Assembly (NCBI GenBank): GCA_016787485.1
Contig: JAEUUL010000041.1
Span: forward strand, 124,001 to 188,000
Direction of reading: 5' to 3'
DNA: 64,000 nucleotides
Source of the DNA: Bacteroidota bacterium
Lineage (GTDB): Bacteria; Bacteroidota; Bacteroidia; NS11-12g; UBA955
The notes under the pieces are model-generated. The model was given only the letters and a program-made list of their open reading frames with translations. It had not been told where the DNA came from and made no database searches. Of the stretch, positions 49,587 to 59,081 are shown piece by piece; the first letter of the stretch is position 1, and the number at the start of each line of letters is the position of its first letter. A program made the translations under genes and the position numbers.

Positions 49587-49949
49587 ATGAATGAATGAAA
49601 CTTTACAAAGATAATCCCCGCGGGATGAGCCGGAGTACTGCATAAACCCCGGCTGCCCGTGGGGAGGTTGTATAAGGGGATATTGGTTGCGGAAATAAAA
49701 TGTGACAAACAGGTAAAAAAACCGGTGTTACCCGGTAAACAAAACCAATGCTGTGCGGAGGTACATTCATTTCCTATCCCGTAATTGATGACGCAACCGG
49801 GTGGAATGGTTGCAGGTATTGCTCATTGCAAATTGTTCGTCATTATAAGGAGTGTTTTTTTCCCGTTTCCTGTAAGTACTGACACAGAACTGACATTTTA
49901 CCTGCAAAAAATTTACGGCTGTGAAACTTGTGACTGACCTTTGCATCCA
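49587..49949. other. Divergent intergenic region between two T9SS genes
   Basis: No gene seen. It contains a minus-strand -7 element TATCTTTG (complement of 49606-49613), an inverted repeat AGCCGG/CCGGCT at 49628-49654 just upstream of it, and a terminator-like hairpin in the minus direction at 49713-49736 (ACCGG/CCGGT followed by T on the minus strand). A GACCTTTG near-match precedes the plus-strand start at 49950. Confidence 0.5.
49606..49613 (-). promoter_or_regulatory. Putative -7 element (TATCTTTG)
   Basis: Exact TAnnTTTG match on the minus strand, 19 bases before the ATG at 49586. No TTG at the standard -33 position. Confidence 0.4.
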
Positions 49950-51539
49950 ATGATCATGGTAAGATTTACAGGATTTTTTCTTCTTCTCCTTTTTTCTGCG
50001 CGGGTGCATGCGCAAAATGCTTCACTGAGCAGCGGAACACTGATGGATGGCGAACCCAATCTGGCGATGAACCCGGCAAACCCCAAAAATCTGGTGGTGG
50101 CCTGGATGAATCTGGGACTGAGTGAAGGCAAAATCAAAATAACCATCAAGGTACGCAGCAGTTTTGACGGAGGAAAAACCTGGGGCGCAGCTATCAACAT
50201 GCCCCATATGGCAACCACCTATGGCAGTGCAGACCCAACGATGGTCTTTCACCGCAGCGGAAAATTGTTTCTTGGTTATCTGGATTACCGTAAATCGCCG
50301 GACAGCGGCGGTTTATATGTGTGCAACAGCATGGATGGCGGTAAAACTTTTTCAACCCCGTTAAAGGCATGGGATGCCCTGGAGGTGAGCAAACGGGCCA
50401 TAGACCGGCCGTGGCTGGCCATTGACAACAGCGGAACGAGCACAGACGGGACATTGTTCGTAACCACAAAGCCAGCGCCCTGGATTCCTGCGCCCAACCG
50501 GCCCTATCTCAAAGTTAGTACCGATGGCGCTATGTCGTGGGGCAACTGGAAATATCTGGATTCCACCGGATTTCTGGTGGGCAATGCCATACAAGCCCCC
50601 ATGGCTGCACCCAATGTGACCAAAAGTGGATTGTTTGTTGCCGCTTTTCCAAGTTATGTGGTTTCGCAGAATGTGTACCCCAGGTTTATACTGGCCACAT
50701 CGCGCACAGCCGGAGCCAAACTGAATTACATTCCCATGCAGGCGGCAAATGACGCTGTCTCGGACACCAACCTGAAACTGGGTTATTTTCTGGCCGCCGA
50801 TCCCAACAATACCAACCGCATGGCCCTGATCCGGGTGGCTAAATCAGGCAGCGGGGATGCAGATATTATGGTCATGCGAACCAATGACGAAGGCGAAACC
50901 TGGACTGCACAAGTGCGTGTAAATGACGACACATTGGGCAATGGGAAGTTGCAGGATATGCCATGGGCCTGTTACGGAAACAACGGAACCCTTGCCGCGG
51001 TGTGGCGTGACCGCAGGAACAGCCCGGGAACCGGCTTTTTCAATCAGGCAACAGACTGTTATTGTGCATTCAGCAAAGACAATGGTGCTACCTGGAGCAA
51101 AAATATCAAAATCAGCACCCAAACCGCAGGGTATGATGCCATACTAACCCAAAACGGAAATGATTTTCAGGGTTGCACACTGCACAATGACACGCTGTAC
51201 AGCACGTGGAGTGATACACGCAATGGCAAACTGGTGGTTTATTTTGCAATCACAGACCTGGAAAGCGGAACAACCACTATAAAAACACTGTTCTCAAACC
51301 CTACCCACATGCGCCTGAAAATCCGGAATACCAGCGAATGGAAACAGATTTCATGGCCACAGGATTGCGTTGCAAGTGAATTTCTGATTCTGGATGAAAC
51401 CGGTAAACAGGTTTTCCGAAAAACAGTATCAGACAAACCGGACAGCATTTCACTTCCGGATGATTTATTGCCAAAAGGCAATTACTTTTTGGTTGTAAAA
51501 GCCATACATGGTGTAATCACGCAAAAAGTATTCTGGTAA
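49950..51539 (+). CDS. Secreted BNR-repeat (sialidase-like) protein with T9SS type A domain
   Basis: 529 residues from the ATG at 49950 (a second ATG at 49956 is equally plausible; the TTG at 49941 is less likely). Signal peptide VRFTGFFLLLLFSARVHAQ. The body is a six-bladed sialidase-type propeller with Asp boxes (SFDGGKTWG, SMDGGKTFS, TNDEGETWT, SKDNGATWS). A short type A-like sorting domain closes it (LILDETGKQVFRK, LLPKGNYFLVV, ending QKVFW); the canonical PNP motif is not obvious, so the sorting domain is a weaker example. Substrate unknown; the Arg triad of true sialidases is not evident. Confidence 0.75.
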   Translation: MIMVRFTGFFLLLLFSARVHAQNASLSSGTLMDGEPNLAMNPANPKNLVVAWMNLGLSEGKIKITIKVRSSFDGGKTWGAAINMPHMATTYGSADPTMVFHRSGKLFLGYLDYRKSPDSGGLYVCNSMDGGKTFSTPLKAWDALEVSKRAIDRPWLAIDNSGTSTDGTLFVTTKPAPWIPAPNRPYLKVSTDGAMSWGNWKYLDSTGFLVGNAIQAPMAAPNVTKSGLFVAAFPSYVVSQNVYPRFILATSRTAGAKLNYIPMQAANDAVSDTNLKLGYFLAADPNNTNRMALIRVAKSGSGDADIMVMRTNDEGETWTAQVRVNDDTLGNGKLQDMPWACYGNNGTLAAVWRDRRNSPGTGFFNQATDCYCAFSKDNGATWSKNIKISTQTAGYDAILTQNGNDFQGCTLHNDTLYSTWSDTRNGKLVVYFAITDLESGTTTIKTLFSNPTHMRLKIRNTSEWKQISWPQDCVASEFLILDETGKQVFRKTVSDKPDSISLPDDLLPKGNYFLVVKAIHGVITQKVFW

Positions 51540-53485: not shown

Positions 53486-53875
53486 ATGTATACGCGTTTT
53501 TTTTTCATTTTCATAGCAGTCTTTGGTATCACATCCTGCAGCAGGGGTGAAGAAAAAGGAGTGGTAAAAGCATGGGTATATACCCAGCGGACAGAAACAA
53601 CAGATTTGGTGTTGTACGTGAATGATACGGCCAGAGGTACAATACCCAAACTGGGCAGGGGTATTACCTGCAACGATGCAGACAGCATCAAATCCAAATC
53701 GCTGGGCATAGACCTGCGACCGGGGAAATTGCATATTCAGGTAAAAACAAATGCAGGCAAATTGGTTGCTTCGGGGCTTATGAATTTACAAGAAGAACAA
53801 ATGGATTTCAAAGGCGAATCTGGCGGAATGGATGCGCGGCAAACCGACAATTGTATGACCATAGAAGTGTTGTAA
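53486..53875 (+). CDS. Small predicted lipoprotein, unknown function
   Basis: 129 residues with a lipoprotein signal (RFFFIFIAVFGITSC, Cys18) and one small beta-rich domain (KAWVYTQRTETTDLVLYVND, GKLHIQVKTNAGKLVASGLM), ending in a conserved-looking Cys (TDNCMTIEVL). No family recognised. It lies 38 bases before the MBL-rhodanese gene in the same direction and may be co-transcribed with it. Confidence 0.7.
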   Translation: MYTRFFFIFIAVFGITSCSRGEEKGVVKAWVYTQRTETTDLVLYVNDTARGTIPKLGRGITCNDADSIKSKSLGIDLRPGKLHIQVKTNAGKLVASGLMNLQEEQMDFKGESGGMDARQTDNCMTIEVL

Positions 53876-53913: not shown

Positions 53914-55203
53914 GTGAAAATACACCCCGTTTATACTGCAGTATTCAATCATTATTCTTATTGCATTACCCATAACCATGAAGCCGTGGTCATAGACCCG
54001 GTGAGAGATACCGCCAGTTATTCAAGCATTGCAGATACAGATAAGTCCGAAATCAGAAATGTACTCGAAACGGCTTTGCACGATTTCTATGTAACGGGCA
54101 ACCGGGAATTGCAACGGCAATACGGGGCTCAGATTCATGTGCCGGAAGGCGCGTCCGTATCCGGAAAAAGCCACAATCCCGCATCAGGCGATTGCATCCG
54201 TCTGGGTGAATACATACTTGAATATGCAGCCCTTCCTGAAAGCGGGAAGTGCATTTATATTTTGAAAACCTCAGACTTACAACCATTGGGATTATTTACC
54301 GGCGAACATTTTCTGTCGGAAATCCTGCAGAAACAACTGGCCGAAATACCGCTTTACCCCGGATTGGGCGCAGGGAACAGCAGAAACTTCAGCCCTGGAA
54401 TGCCACTGAAGAATTACCCCATGAATGACGTGCATGAACAGCAAATACACAATCCGGTTCCTGACGATTATGCAGAGAACCTGATGGAAATGAACAGCAA
54501 AGGCCCCTCTGCGATCAGTGAGATTACCGGAAAAAGCAAAGCTTTTTCTGCCGATGAATTGGCTGAAGAAATCAAAAACGGAACTTTGGTCATTGACACC
54601 AGAGAACCGGAAAATTTCGGAACCTGTTTTATTCCCGGTTCATTGAGTTTGCCTTTGAATGGCAAACCCGGTCTGTGTATCCCTTTTTTGCTGGATGCAG
54701 ACAGGCGTGTAGCAATTGTTAGCGAGCCCGGCACAGAAATGTCCGGCATCAACATGTTGCTGAATGCCGGTGTTCAGCAAATAGCAGGATGGTTGCAGGG
54801 AGGAATGAATACCTGGACTGCTGCGGGCAAAAAAACGGACATGATCATTTGCATAGATGCAGAAGAATTTTTGCTCGACCACACCTACTCTTCTGCCAAA
54901 GCGATAGACGCACGCAATGCGGATCAATTTGCGAAAGGCAGTATACCTGATGCGGTAAATGTGCCATTGGCAATGCTTTCCGAAGCCCTTTCAAAGGCAG
55001 GAACAGAAGAGGAAATTCACGTATTCAGTCAAAGTGGCTGCAGAAGTATCACCCTTGCATCCTGGCTGAAAATGCGGGGATACCCGCTGGTGAAAAATGT
55101 TCTGGGCGGCTACGCTTCCATACTACAGATCCAAATGCCGGAAGTACTGCCTTACAAGGGTAGCGGGGATTCTGCTGCCGGAGAATTTGACTTATCTTTG
55201 TAG
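53914..55203 (+). CDS. Degenerate metallo-beta-lactamase/double rhodanese fusion (probable pseudoenzyme)
   Basis: 429 residues from GTG 53914; the homologues begin MKI...YSY, matched here by KIHPVYTAVFNHYSY, so the ATG at 53851 (inside the previous gene) is rejected. Architecture matches persulfide-dioxygenase-rhodanese proteins: MBL domain ~1-200, rhodanese ~207-305, rhodanese ~310-410. The catalytic residues are largely gone. The THxHADH motif reads T53-A-L-H-D-F-Y59 (only His56 kept). The TPGHT His is missing (AALPES), TGD is TGE131, and the YPAHGAG His is Leu151. In rhodanese 1 the loop is IVSEPGTE, with no Cys, as is common for this position. In rhodanese 2 it is FSQSGCRS, with Ser372 where the Cys should be and a Cys at 376. 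It probably has a binding or regulatory role rather than sulfur chemistry. The stop is 2 bases before the next gene. Confidence 0.85.
   Translation: MKIHPVYTAVFNHYSYCITHNHEAVVIDPVRDTASYSSIADTDKSEIRNVLETALHDFYVTGNRELQRQYGAQIHVPEGASVSGKSHNPASGDCIRLGEYILEYAALPESGKCIYILKTSDLQPLGLFTGEHFLSEILQKQLAEIPLYPGLGAGNSRNFSPGMPLKNYPMNDVHEQQIHNPVPDDYAENLMEMNSKGPSAISEITGKSKAFSADELAEEIKNGTLVIDTREPENFGTCFIPGSLSLPLNGKPGLCIPFLLDADRRVAIVSEPGTEMSGINMLLNAGVQQIAGWLQGGMNTWTAAGKKTDMIICIDAEEFLLDHTYSSAKAIDARNADQFAKGSIPDAVNVPLAMLSEALSKAGTEEEIHVFSQSGCRSITLASWLKMRGYPLVKNVLGGYASILQIQMPEVLPYKGSGDSAAGEFDLSL
55193..55200 (+). promoter_or_regulatory. Putative -7 element (TATCTTTG) at the end of the MBL-rhodanese gene
   Basis: Exact TAnnTTTG, 5 bases before the ATG at 55206, overlapping the last codons of the previous gene (encoding LSL). 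It may be an internal promoter of the operon. Confidence 0.3.
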
Positions 55204-55205
55204 GA

Positions 55206-57674
55206 ATGATTTTGAGGATTGCAAGGCCCGCACTGATAACTGTGCTTGTTACAGCCGGGGCGATTATTACAGGCAATTGCCTGCAGAATGTAAAGAATGG
55301 TGGAGGGGAAGAAGGTGATCATCCGGGGTATTTTCAACAGTGGTTCAATGAGAAGAAAGATGCCAATGGCAATATTCCACGGTGGCTGCAAGCCAGTTGG
55401 TCTGCCTGGGACAAATCGCAGATTAACCGCAGATCTGAACCGGTAATTGACAGTGTAATCCAGTTGGGACCGAAAGATGTGGGAGGCCGAACCCGTTCTG
55501 TATGGATAGACCCCAGAAATGAGAATATCATCCTGGCCGCAGCGATCAGTGGTGGCATGTGGCGCAGCGAAAATACAGGCAGCACATGGACACCCATCAA
55601 TGACCAGAATGCATCATTCATGTCCAGTTGCATTGTTTCCAATCCGTTCAATCACGACGAAGTGTATTACGGCACCGGTGAAGCCCGTGCAAACAGTGCA
55701 GATGTCAGTGGGAACGGCATATACAAATCAAATGATGGTGGAAAAACCTTCTCTGTGCTGAGCTCAACTGTAGGGAAAACCGGATTCGACGTGGTGTGGG
55801 ATATAGATCACAATCTGGATCAGGACGGCTTACTGTACGCGGCTACAGATGCAACAGGTCTTTGGCGCAGCCGTGATGCAGGAGCTACCTGGGAGGAAAG
55901 TTTTTTTGGCGGAAATAAAAAAGCGACTGACATTCTGGTACTTCCCAAAAACAGAGTACTGGTTTCTTTGCAGAGCAACGGCGTTTATGCCAGTGATAGT
56001 GCAGGCAAGAAGGGCACGTTTACCAAACTGACATTCCCGGGTTTGTCCTCATCTTATCTGAGAATACAACTGGCCAGTTGCAGAAAATACCCCAATGTGT
56101 GCTGGGCACTCGTAGAAAACACAAGTTTCAGCGGTACTCCGGTTGGATTTTACAAAAGCTCAAATGGCGGCCGTACCTGGGTTTCTAAAACGTTGCCCGA
56201 CAAAGCGGGCTCAGGCTATCAGGGGTATTGCGTAATGCTGGGTGCACATCCCACAGACAGCAACTCGGTGGTTGCAGGTGGCGTAAATATCGCACAAAGC
56301 ACAAACGGTGGGGCCACCTGGACCAGCAAAACCGTAGGGCATAGCGATAACCATGCATTTGCGCCATACATAGGAAAACCCGATGAATTTCTGGTAGGAA
56401 GTGATGGAGGGGTCCACAGGTTTAAATGGAGTGTAAACAGCGCCCCCCTCAGTTTAAACACAGGATACTATACCACCCAGTTCTATGCCGGCAATTTTGG
56501 TATGTCTGGACTTATTTCCATGTCAGGTGCGCAAGACAATGGCACGCATGTTGCCACCAATAAACTCACCAGCAAAAAGTTTTATGGCGCTGATGGAGCC
56601 TATGCGCATATTGGCTTGCAAGATGGTTCTGTAGCCTATATGAGTACCCAAAATGACGGTATCCGCAGGTTTGACAATTTCAACCCAACCAACCCGGCAG
56701 GTTTCAGTTCCGACATCAGCAATGGCGGCACATTTGCCGCAGACGGTGTAGACTTTATCAATGCCTACAACATGAACAAGGCCGATCAGAACATGTTGTT
56801 TTACCGCACGGCCAAAGGTTGGTACCGCAGCACAGACGGGGGTGAGTCCTGGACAAAACTGACCAGTTCTACCCGGGCGGGTATCAAAGCCATTGGCATT
56901 TCGAACGATGCAAACCCTGTGGTTTATTTCGGAGGCAGTGCCGCACAAATCTACAAAGTAGTCAATGCCGGCACTTCTGGTGTGGGACAAGAAGTGAATA
57001 TGAACTCCACCGTACCTGTTGCGGTAACCGATCAGTTTATCAGTGCAATCACAGTGCACCCGAAAGACAAGTACTGCATCTATTTCTCATTCAGCAACAA
57101 CGGCAGCTTTTCGCACGTTTGGCGCGCATCAGGAATGGATTCCTCCAAGCCTGTTTACAAAGACATCTCGGGCAATCTGCCTCCTACCCTACCTGTAAAT
57201 ATGGTGGCAGTTGATCCGGCATTTCCCGATAAAAATTTCTTTGCCGCCACAGATTTCGGCTTGTACTACAGCACAGATTCAGGAAAGACATGGACCAAAG
57301 AGACCAGGGTACCCAATGTGGCCATCCATGAAATAAAAATGCGCGATGACCGCACTTGTTTCCTGTATACACATGGTCGGGGAATGTGGGCCTTTACACT
57401 CATTCCTGTAAATGGAGTTACACGCCCGGAAAAACCAAGCCAACTCAGTGTGTTTCCCAATCCTGCCACCGGATATATTCAGGTCTCATTGCCTGTAATC
57501 CGTCAAAACTGCAGCTACGAGATTTACAATCCTGCAGGGCAGAAACTAGTGCAGGGGCAAATCTCACAGACAGAGAATAAAATTCAGATATCGCAATTGA
57601 CTCCCGGATATTACTTTCTGCGGGTAAAGGAAAACGGAAAATACAGTACTGCCAGATTTGCCATCAGGCGCTGA
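55206..57674 (+). CDS. Secreted BNR/Asp-box (VPS10/sortilin-like) propeller protein with T9SS type A domain
   Basis: 822 residues, starting 2 bases after the MBL-rhodanese stop. The N-terminus is a hydrophobic signal (LRIARPALITVLVTAGAIIT). The body has at least seven Asp-box-type turns (SENTGSTWTP, SNDGGKTFS, SRDAGATWEE, SSNGGRTWVS, STNGGATWTS, STDGGESWTK, STDSGKTWTK), giving a large beta-propeller. The final ~75 residues are a sorting domain (SVFPNPATGYIQVSLP, LTPGYYFLRV, ending RFAIRR). It is related in layout to the BNR protein at 20968 but clearly a different sequence. Substrate unknown; a glycan or protein-binding role is possible. Confidence 0.83.
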   Translation: MILRIARPALITVLVTAGAIITGNCLQNVKNGGGEEGDHPGYFQQWFNEKKDANGNIPRWLQASWSAWDKSQINRRSEPVIDSVIQLGPKDVGGRTRSVWIDPRNENIILAAAISGGMWRSENTGSTWTPINDQNASFMSSCIVSNPFNHDEVYYGTGEARANSADVSGNGIYKSNDGGKTFSVLSSTVGKTGFDVVWDIDHNLDQDGLLYAATDATGLWRSRDAGATWEESFFGGNKKATDILVLPKNRVLVSLQSNGVYASDSAGKKGTFTKLTFPGLSSSYLRIQLASCRKYPNVCWALVENTSFSGTPVGFYKSSNGGRTWVSKTLPDKAGSGYQGYCVMLGAHPTDSNSVVAGGVNIAQSTNGGATWTSKTVGHSDNHAFAPYIGKPDEFLVGSDGGVHRFKWSVNSAPLSLNTGYYTTQFYAGNFGMSGLISMSGAQDNGTHVATNKLTSKKFYGADGAYAHIGLQDGSVAYMSTQNDGIRRFDNFNPTNPAGFSSDISNGGTFAADGVDFINAYNMNKADQNMLFYRTAKGWYRSTDGGESWTKLTSSTRAGIKAIGISNDANPVVYFGGSAAQIYKVVNAGTSGVGQEVNMNSTVPVAVTDQFISAITVHPKDKYCIYFSFSNNGSFSHVWRASGMDSSKPVYKDISGNLPPTLPVNMVAVDPAFPDKNFFAATDFGLYYSTDSGKTWTKETRVPNVAIHEIKMRDDRTCFLYTHGRGMWAFTLIPVNGVTRPEKPSQLSVFPNPATGYIQVSLPVIRQNCSYEIYNPAGQKLVQGQISQTENKIQISQLTPGYYFLRVKENGKYSTARFAIRR

Positions 57675-57676
57675 AC

Positions 57677-58051
57677 ATGAAAGATCCTCTGGAAAAAGAA
57701 CTTGTGGCACTGGAAAAGCAGCTGGCCGCGCTGAGTGATGAGATGCTGGCCCTGAGCCGGGATATTGTATCAGGTAACTACAGCAAACACCCCATATTTG
57801 TCGCACATGAAGGACAGGTAGAACTGGGAGAATTGATACTGGACAGAACGGAATATCAGGTTCCCTACTCTGTGAATGTATCCTCTGCGGAGGAATTTGA
57901 GGAACTGGGACTGATAGAAGAAGGTAAGATGCCGGAATTTGAAAAAGCTTTCGGCGACCCGCTGAAAATGATGTGTGTGTTTTGGGTTCACGGAGAAATG
58001 GCAAGGTATATTTCCTATCCATTTGCCAAAAGAGACACCGATCCAAACTGA
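57677..58051 (+). CDS. Small acidic protein, unknown function
   Basis: 124 residues, starting 2 bases after the BNR gene and ending 1 base before the glycosyltransferase ATG. The first ~30 residues are a coiled-coil-like helix (KELVALEKQLAALSDEMLAL); the rest is a compact alpha/beta domain with many acidic residues (SSAEEFEELGLIEEGKMPEF) and no signal peptide, so it is probably cytoplasmic. No family recognised. The very tight spacing argues for a shared function or at least coupled expression. Confidence 0.7.
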   Translation: MKDPLEKELVALEKQLAALSDEMLALSRDIVSGNYSKHPIFVAHEGQVELGELILDRTEYQVPYSVNVSSAEEFEELGLIEEGKMPEFEKAFGDPLKMMCVFWVHGEMARYISYPFAKRDTDPN

Positions 58052-58052
58052 T

Positions 58053-59081
58053 ATGGGGGTTCGCACAGACATTGTTATCCTCAATTACAATACGAAGGGC
58101 TTGCTGGAGGCATTGCTGCCGCTGGTAAAAGCAAACACAAACCTGGACGGGGTGCAGATTGTGGTGGCAGACAATGCCAGCAGCGATGGCAGCGCAGAGT
58201 ATGTAAAACAATACCACCCGGATATTGAACTGGTAGAAATGAAGGAAAACCGGGGATATGCCGGTGGATACAATGCCTGCCTGAAAGGAAGGACCGCCGA
58301 CTACTTTGTTTTGCTGAACAGCGATGCAGAACCTGCTCCGGGGTGGTTGCCACCATTGATAGACCAGGCAGAAAATCATCCGGAATGTGCTGCTGTTCAG
58401 CCAGCCCTGCTCGATTTCTACAACCGCGAAAAATATGAATATGCGGGTGCAGCCGGTGGATTTTTAGATCATTATGGGTATCCGTTTTGCCGGGGACGCA
58501 TCTTTGGCAATCTGGAAAATGTGGAAGGGCAATACAGCGAACCTGAAGAAATATTCTGGGCCAGCGGAGCTGCGCTTTTTATGCGCCGCACTGCCTGGGA
58601 ACAAGCCGGAGGTCTTGATGAGACCTTCTTTGCGCATATGGAAGAAATAGATCTGTGCTGGCGTTTAAAAAACAAAGGCTGGGAAATATGGGCTTGTCCG
58701 GATAGTACCGTATACCATATGGGTGGTGCTACACTAAGCAATCAAAGTCCGCGAAAAACCTATCTGAATTTCAGAAACGGATTGCTTATGTTGTACAAAA
58801 ACCTGCATGAAAAAGAACTGAACCGTGTGATTTTCCGACGCAAATTGTTGGATGGTCTTGCAGCTGTTTTTTTTATGCTTCAGGGCAAATTCAATCACAT
58901 ACCACAAATCTGGAAAGCCCACCGTCATTTCGATAAAATGAAACGGAATTTTTCCCGTCCGGCGTCCAACAAACCTATGTCAGAACTGACGGGCGTGCTT
59001 AAAGGCAGTTTGGTTTTCCGTTATTTCCTTAAGGGCCAGAAAACAACGACTCAACTGAAACACATGATTACCAAAGGGTAA
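58053..59081 (+). CDS. GT2-family glycosyltransferase
   Basis: 342 residues from the ATG at 58053; the open frame upstream to 57975 lies in the previous gene. GT-A fold with N-terminal nucleotide-sugar motifs (TDIVILNYNTKGLL, VVADNASSDGSAEYV), a DxD-like VLLNSDAEP, and the acceptor-site ETFFAHMEEIDLCWRLK. Resembles rhamnosyl- or galactofuranosyl-type transferases. The C-terminal ~80 residues are basic and amphipathic and may contact the membrane. Likely adds a sugar to a surface glycan or glycoprotein. It overlaps the convergent gene at 59068 by 14 bases. Confidence 0.92.
   Translation: MGVRTDIVILNYNTKGLLEALLPLVKANTNLDGVQIVVADNASSDGSAEYVKQYHPDIELVEMKENRGYAGGYNACLKGRTADYFVLLNSDAEPAPGWLPPLIDQAENHPECAAVQPALLDFYNREKYEYAGAAGGFLDHYGYPFCRGRIFGNLENVEGQYSEPEEIFWASGAALFMRRTAWEQAGGLDETFFAHMEEIDLCWRLKNKGWEIWACPDSTVYHMGGATLSNQSPRKTYLNFRNGLLMLYKNLHEKELNRVIFRRKLLDGLAAVFFMLQGKFNHIPQIWKAHRHFDKMKRNFSRPASNKPMSELTGVLKGSLVFRYFLKGQKTTTQLKHMITKG

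Follow-up and report, generated by a model that had tools for sequence, protein, structure and literature searches.

The gene studied here, Q, lies in a 64,000-nucleotide stretch of DNA (the window) and encodes a degenerate persulfide dioxygenase-double rhodanese (Table 1). Rather than being simply broken, the gene probably encodes a pseudoenzyme specific to its lineage. This reading, with descent from a Type III persulfide dioxygenase-rhodanese, is given a probability of about 0.65. The ancestry itself is Type III (CstB-like). Judged by alignment, Q has lost the residues that bind iron and transfer sulfur. If Q is still under selection, it would be a pseudoenzyme within the persulfide dioxygenase-rhodanese family. 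An open-access literature search found no paper on such a pseudoenzyme in this family, though one may have been described elsewhere.

Q begins with a metallo-beta-lactamase (MBL) domain, which is followed by two rhodanese domains. This is the whole-length layout of the family, as the initial annotation had recognised. The reading frame is intact, also as first described, with no stop or frameshift over 429 codons. Alignment supports the GTG start as the family start, with the MKI of Q opposite MxIEQIYT of relatives. In Pfam searches the Rhodanese model matches and the MBL domain has no Lactamase_B match. The AlphaFold2 model has a pLDDT of 84.2 and resembles 3TP9 with a Z of 35.6 over 402 residues, but this fold is not independent evidence because the alignment behind it was built from canonical relatives, which may impose it. 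In sequence searches Q also matches 3TP9, and L017, an intact homologue from genome G024 of the same family, matches it far more strongly. A promoter scan gave a chance-level, uninformative result.

Table 1. Features of Q and of the genes downstream (positions in the window).
Feature	Position	Strand	Basis or remark
Q, degenerate persulfide dioxygenase-double rhodanese, 429 aa, GTG start	53914..55203	+	predicted fold compared with 3TP9
Q MBL (ETHE1-like) domain and linker, residues 1-184, shortened	53914..54465	+	32/90 conserved columns kept; deletions
Q residues 54-59, ALHDFY (HFHADF in relatives)	54073..54090	+	loss of first iron ligand and of second sphere; His56 retained
Q residues 108-109, Pro-Glu; Gly-His of TPGHT deleted (second iron ligand)	54235..54240	+	alignment
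Q residues 131-132, Glu-His (Asp-Thr in relatives); third iron ligand, conservative change	54304..54309	+	alignment
Q Leu151 (second-sphere His in relatives)	54364..54366	+	alignment
Q first rhodanese domain	54538..54834	+	Pfam, alignment; loop Cys absent in most relatives too
Q second rhodanese domain	54844..55155	+	Pfam Rhodanese, E 3.4e-20 for whole protein
Q active-site loop SQSGCRS; Ser372 for catalytic Cys, Cys376 for Tyr	55027..55047	+	
BNR/sortilin-like propeller with T9SS C-terminal tail	55206..57674	+	starts 2 bases after Q stop
Conserved 124-aa protein	57677..58051	+	no Pfam or NCBIfam match
GT2 glycosyltransferase	58053..59081	+	ATG start inside listed ORF 57975-59081

In persulfide dioxygenases, iron is bound by two His residues, one of them the first His of THxHAD, and by one Asp, that of GD (PMC6060420). 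The HAD Asp and the His corresponding to position 151 belong to the second sphere, and Type III enzymes usually carry Phe or Tyr as the third residue of the motif (PMC6060420). Conservation was counted in an alignment of 130 relatives, from which L132 was left out (it has a stop inside its range). The column of His54 is His in 128 of 130 relatives and Ala in Q, and that of Asp131 is Asp in every relative and Glu in Q. All 130 relatives contain the Gly-His-Thr of TPGHT; Q lacks the Gly and the His, and the Thr is replaced by Glu109. The second iron-ligand His is taken here to be this PGHT His, on the model of ETHE1. On this alignment, all three true iron ligands are altered in Q, one of them conservatively (Asp to Glu), and no 2-His-1-Asp site is present.

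The second sphere and the C-terminal rhodanese loop are altered as well. Asp58 (129/130 relatives) is Phe in Q and His151 (130/130) is Leu. In the loop, the catalytic Cys372 is present in every relative and is Ser in Q, and Tyr376 (129/130) is Cys. Q has thus lost all six key catalytic positions (His54, Asp58, the PGHT His, Asp131, His151 and Cys372); Thr53 and His56 are retained. In the first rhodanese loop, column 270 is Cys in only 23 of 130 relatives. Q keeps about half of the conserved, non-gap columns (63/120). Relative to L017 it has six missing stretches (2, 13, 16, 2, 7 and 6 residues), which include GDVGRPDL, and the MBL domain and linker have lost about 46 residues in total.

Most of the residue losses first reported from the sequence hold. 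The missing TPGHT His is borne out, as is the pair of Ser372 for Cys and a new Cys376. The five MBL metal ligands reported as lost are a mixture: Ala54 and Glu131 are ligand changes, Phe58 and Leu151 are second-sphere changes, and Tyr59 is not a loss because relatives have Phe there. Alignment with intact homologues did not restore any ligand; only Tyr59 leaves the list of losses.

Among characterised systems, Staphylococcus aureus CstB (Type III; solved relatives 3R2U and 3TP9) has the same MBL-rhodanese-rhodanese order as Q, and in CstB-type proteins the third motif position is likewise Phe or Tyr. Q differs from CstB-type proteins in that all three iron ligands, both second-sphere residues (Asp and His) and the rhodanese Cys are replaced, and in its six deletions across the MBL part and the linker. 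The MBL folds of BpPRF (5VE3-5VE5) and human ETHE1 (4CHL) are related to that of Q, but their 2-His-1-Asp iron site is intact and they contain one rhodanese domain or none.

Downstream, Q is tightly linked to a propeller, a small protein and a glycosyltransferase (Table 1). In G024, a gap of 5 bases separates the intact L017 from the propeller downstream of it, and a second propeller, the small protein and the glycosyltransferase come next. The other propeller-small protein-glycosyltransferase loci examined contain no MBL-rhodanese gene, and in most of them a divergent gene lies upstream. The order common to Q and L017 is therefore derived, and Q is probably the positional orthologue of this working enzyme. 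The linkage had been put forward as a sign of a new purpose. This is rejected, since the intact L017 is linked in the same way and the linkage thus predates the catalytic loss. Between the genome of Q (G000) and G024, identity is 55% for the propeller, 50% for the small protein and 63% for the glycosyltransferase. Identity between Q and L017, which has all motifs, is only 31%; for the other family and order copies of this type, identity to L017 is 54-62%. These values show a strong acceleration in Q.

The genome of Q contains two intact paralogues (L010 and L011), which makes Q a third copy. The branch of Q is the longest in the trees, which give it no firm placement. A sister grouping of Q and L017 is disfavoured (AU p 0.025), and the orthology of the two consequently rests on synteny; because the branch is very long, the tree is weak evidence on this pairing. 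No close homologue of Q is found in its own genome or in 70 family, 108 order and 395 class genomes (overlapping sets), in searches that listed only matches under set E-values. Exact peptide patterns gave none in the genome contigs. A further pattern scan included the intact motif ETHFHADF and is therefore biased against degenerate relatives. None is found in viral contigs, and a plasmid collection contains only relatives below 60% identity. No second genome among those searched has the degenerate form.

Simple neutral decay of Q is disfavoured. In neutral simulations under a simple mutation model, with L017 as stand-in ancestor, sequences that retain 50% identity acquire 11.8 stops on average and those that retain 40% acquire 13.6. 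Q contains no stop, and its six deletions leave no lasting frameshift. In a second set of simulations, again from L017, stops were forbidden and 300 runs were made at each of three divergence levels. Q keeps 80% of the conserved Gly residues, more than all 300 runs at each level. It keeps 84% of the MBL-core hydrophobic residues, a value reached in 0, 2 and 10 of 300 runs. The hydrophobic residues of the rhodanese half are unexceptional at the 50% level (90/300 runs). These computations support the view that Q was kept folded during most of its divergence; residues of the fold would have been kept by selection, and a long random decay is therefore unlikely.

The most probable course is that the two intact paralogues made Q redundant and so released it from catalytic constraint, and that its fold and frame were kept although catalysis was lost. 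Any action of Q would then be through binding, with neither persulfide oxidation nor sulfur transfer. The likeliest role would be that of a partner or binding protein, such as a non-catalytic subunit alongside the intact paralogues or a binder of thiols or persulfides, but this is a guess and more likely wrong than right. Also unlikely is that Q is maintained as a pseudo-persulfide-dioxygenase whose binding regulates the intact paralogues or sulfur metabolism, or which has a rebuilt metal or Cys site. Together, Q on one side and the intact G024 homologue and two intact paralogues on the other form a before-and-after pair that bears on the role of a protein after catalysis is lost.

The alternative that survives best, though unlikely, is that Q is decaying: it diverged fast under constraint, was then recently released from selection and is not yet broken. 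This agrees with the longest branch in the trees, the 32 of 90 conserved columns left in the MBL part, the lack of a second genome with the same form and the redundancy provided by the paralogues. It is opposed by the lack of any stop or frameshift and by the retention of Gly and MBL-core residues above neutral simulation. The simulations count against a long unconstrained history and not against recent loss. Random decay, which the initial annotation had named as a refutation, is thus improbable over the long term, and recent decay stays a rival.

It is doubtful that only the open frame of Q is kept, through coupling to the propeller, while the protein itself is inert. A stop inside Q would be polar on the downstream genes because the Q stop is 2 bases before the propeller start; the corresponding gap in G024 is similarly short, and the frame is intact despite rapid divergence. 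Against this, the stop-free simulation misses the observed Gly retention in 300 runs at every tested level, and in many relatives the propeller-small protein-glycosyltransferase genes occur without such a leader gene. A new activity at Cys376, which lies in the rhodanese loop beside the retained Arg377 and Ser378, or at a metal site rebuilt from His56, Asp57, Glu131 and His132 (the last two replacing Asp-Thr) is highly improbable, as the residues in question are common to no relative and the second iron ligand is deleted. The new chemistry at Cys376 proposed initially is accordingly unsupported: this Cys is found in no relative, and it is not special because other invariant columns have also become Cys (Cys255 replaces a Trp invariant in 130/130 relatives).

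Double rhodaneses that lack the MBL domain occur in the same family (L055, L058-L062 and L157). Their rhodanese didomain is related to that of Q, and their placement beside Q is weak (40/30). In two of them, L059 and L060 (two species of genus g8), the rhodanese Cys is Gly and pN is 0.23 against a saturated pS. At least once, therefore, related proteins have lost the catalytic Cys and stayed under constraint. Both genes adjoin a tsaB-like gene, and L059 also lies before an rsmI-like gene (names judged from N-terminal sequence).

The family of the 124-aa protein (L161-L169, L172-L177 and the window copy) is present in 86 of 107 order genomes. In the loci examined its gene immediately precedes a GT2 glycosyltransferase, and it often lies behind a T9SS-tailed propeller. 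In G024 the propeller (L053) forms a tandem pair behind the intact MBL-rhodanese gene. Within the window, a second BNR propeller (49941-51539), whose T9SS tail is weak, lies upstream of an amine oxidase gene. Between the amine oxidase gene and Q is a 129-aa probable lipoprotein (53486-53875), which has a relative in only one other order genome.
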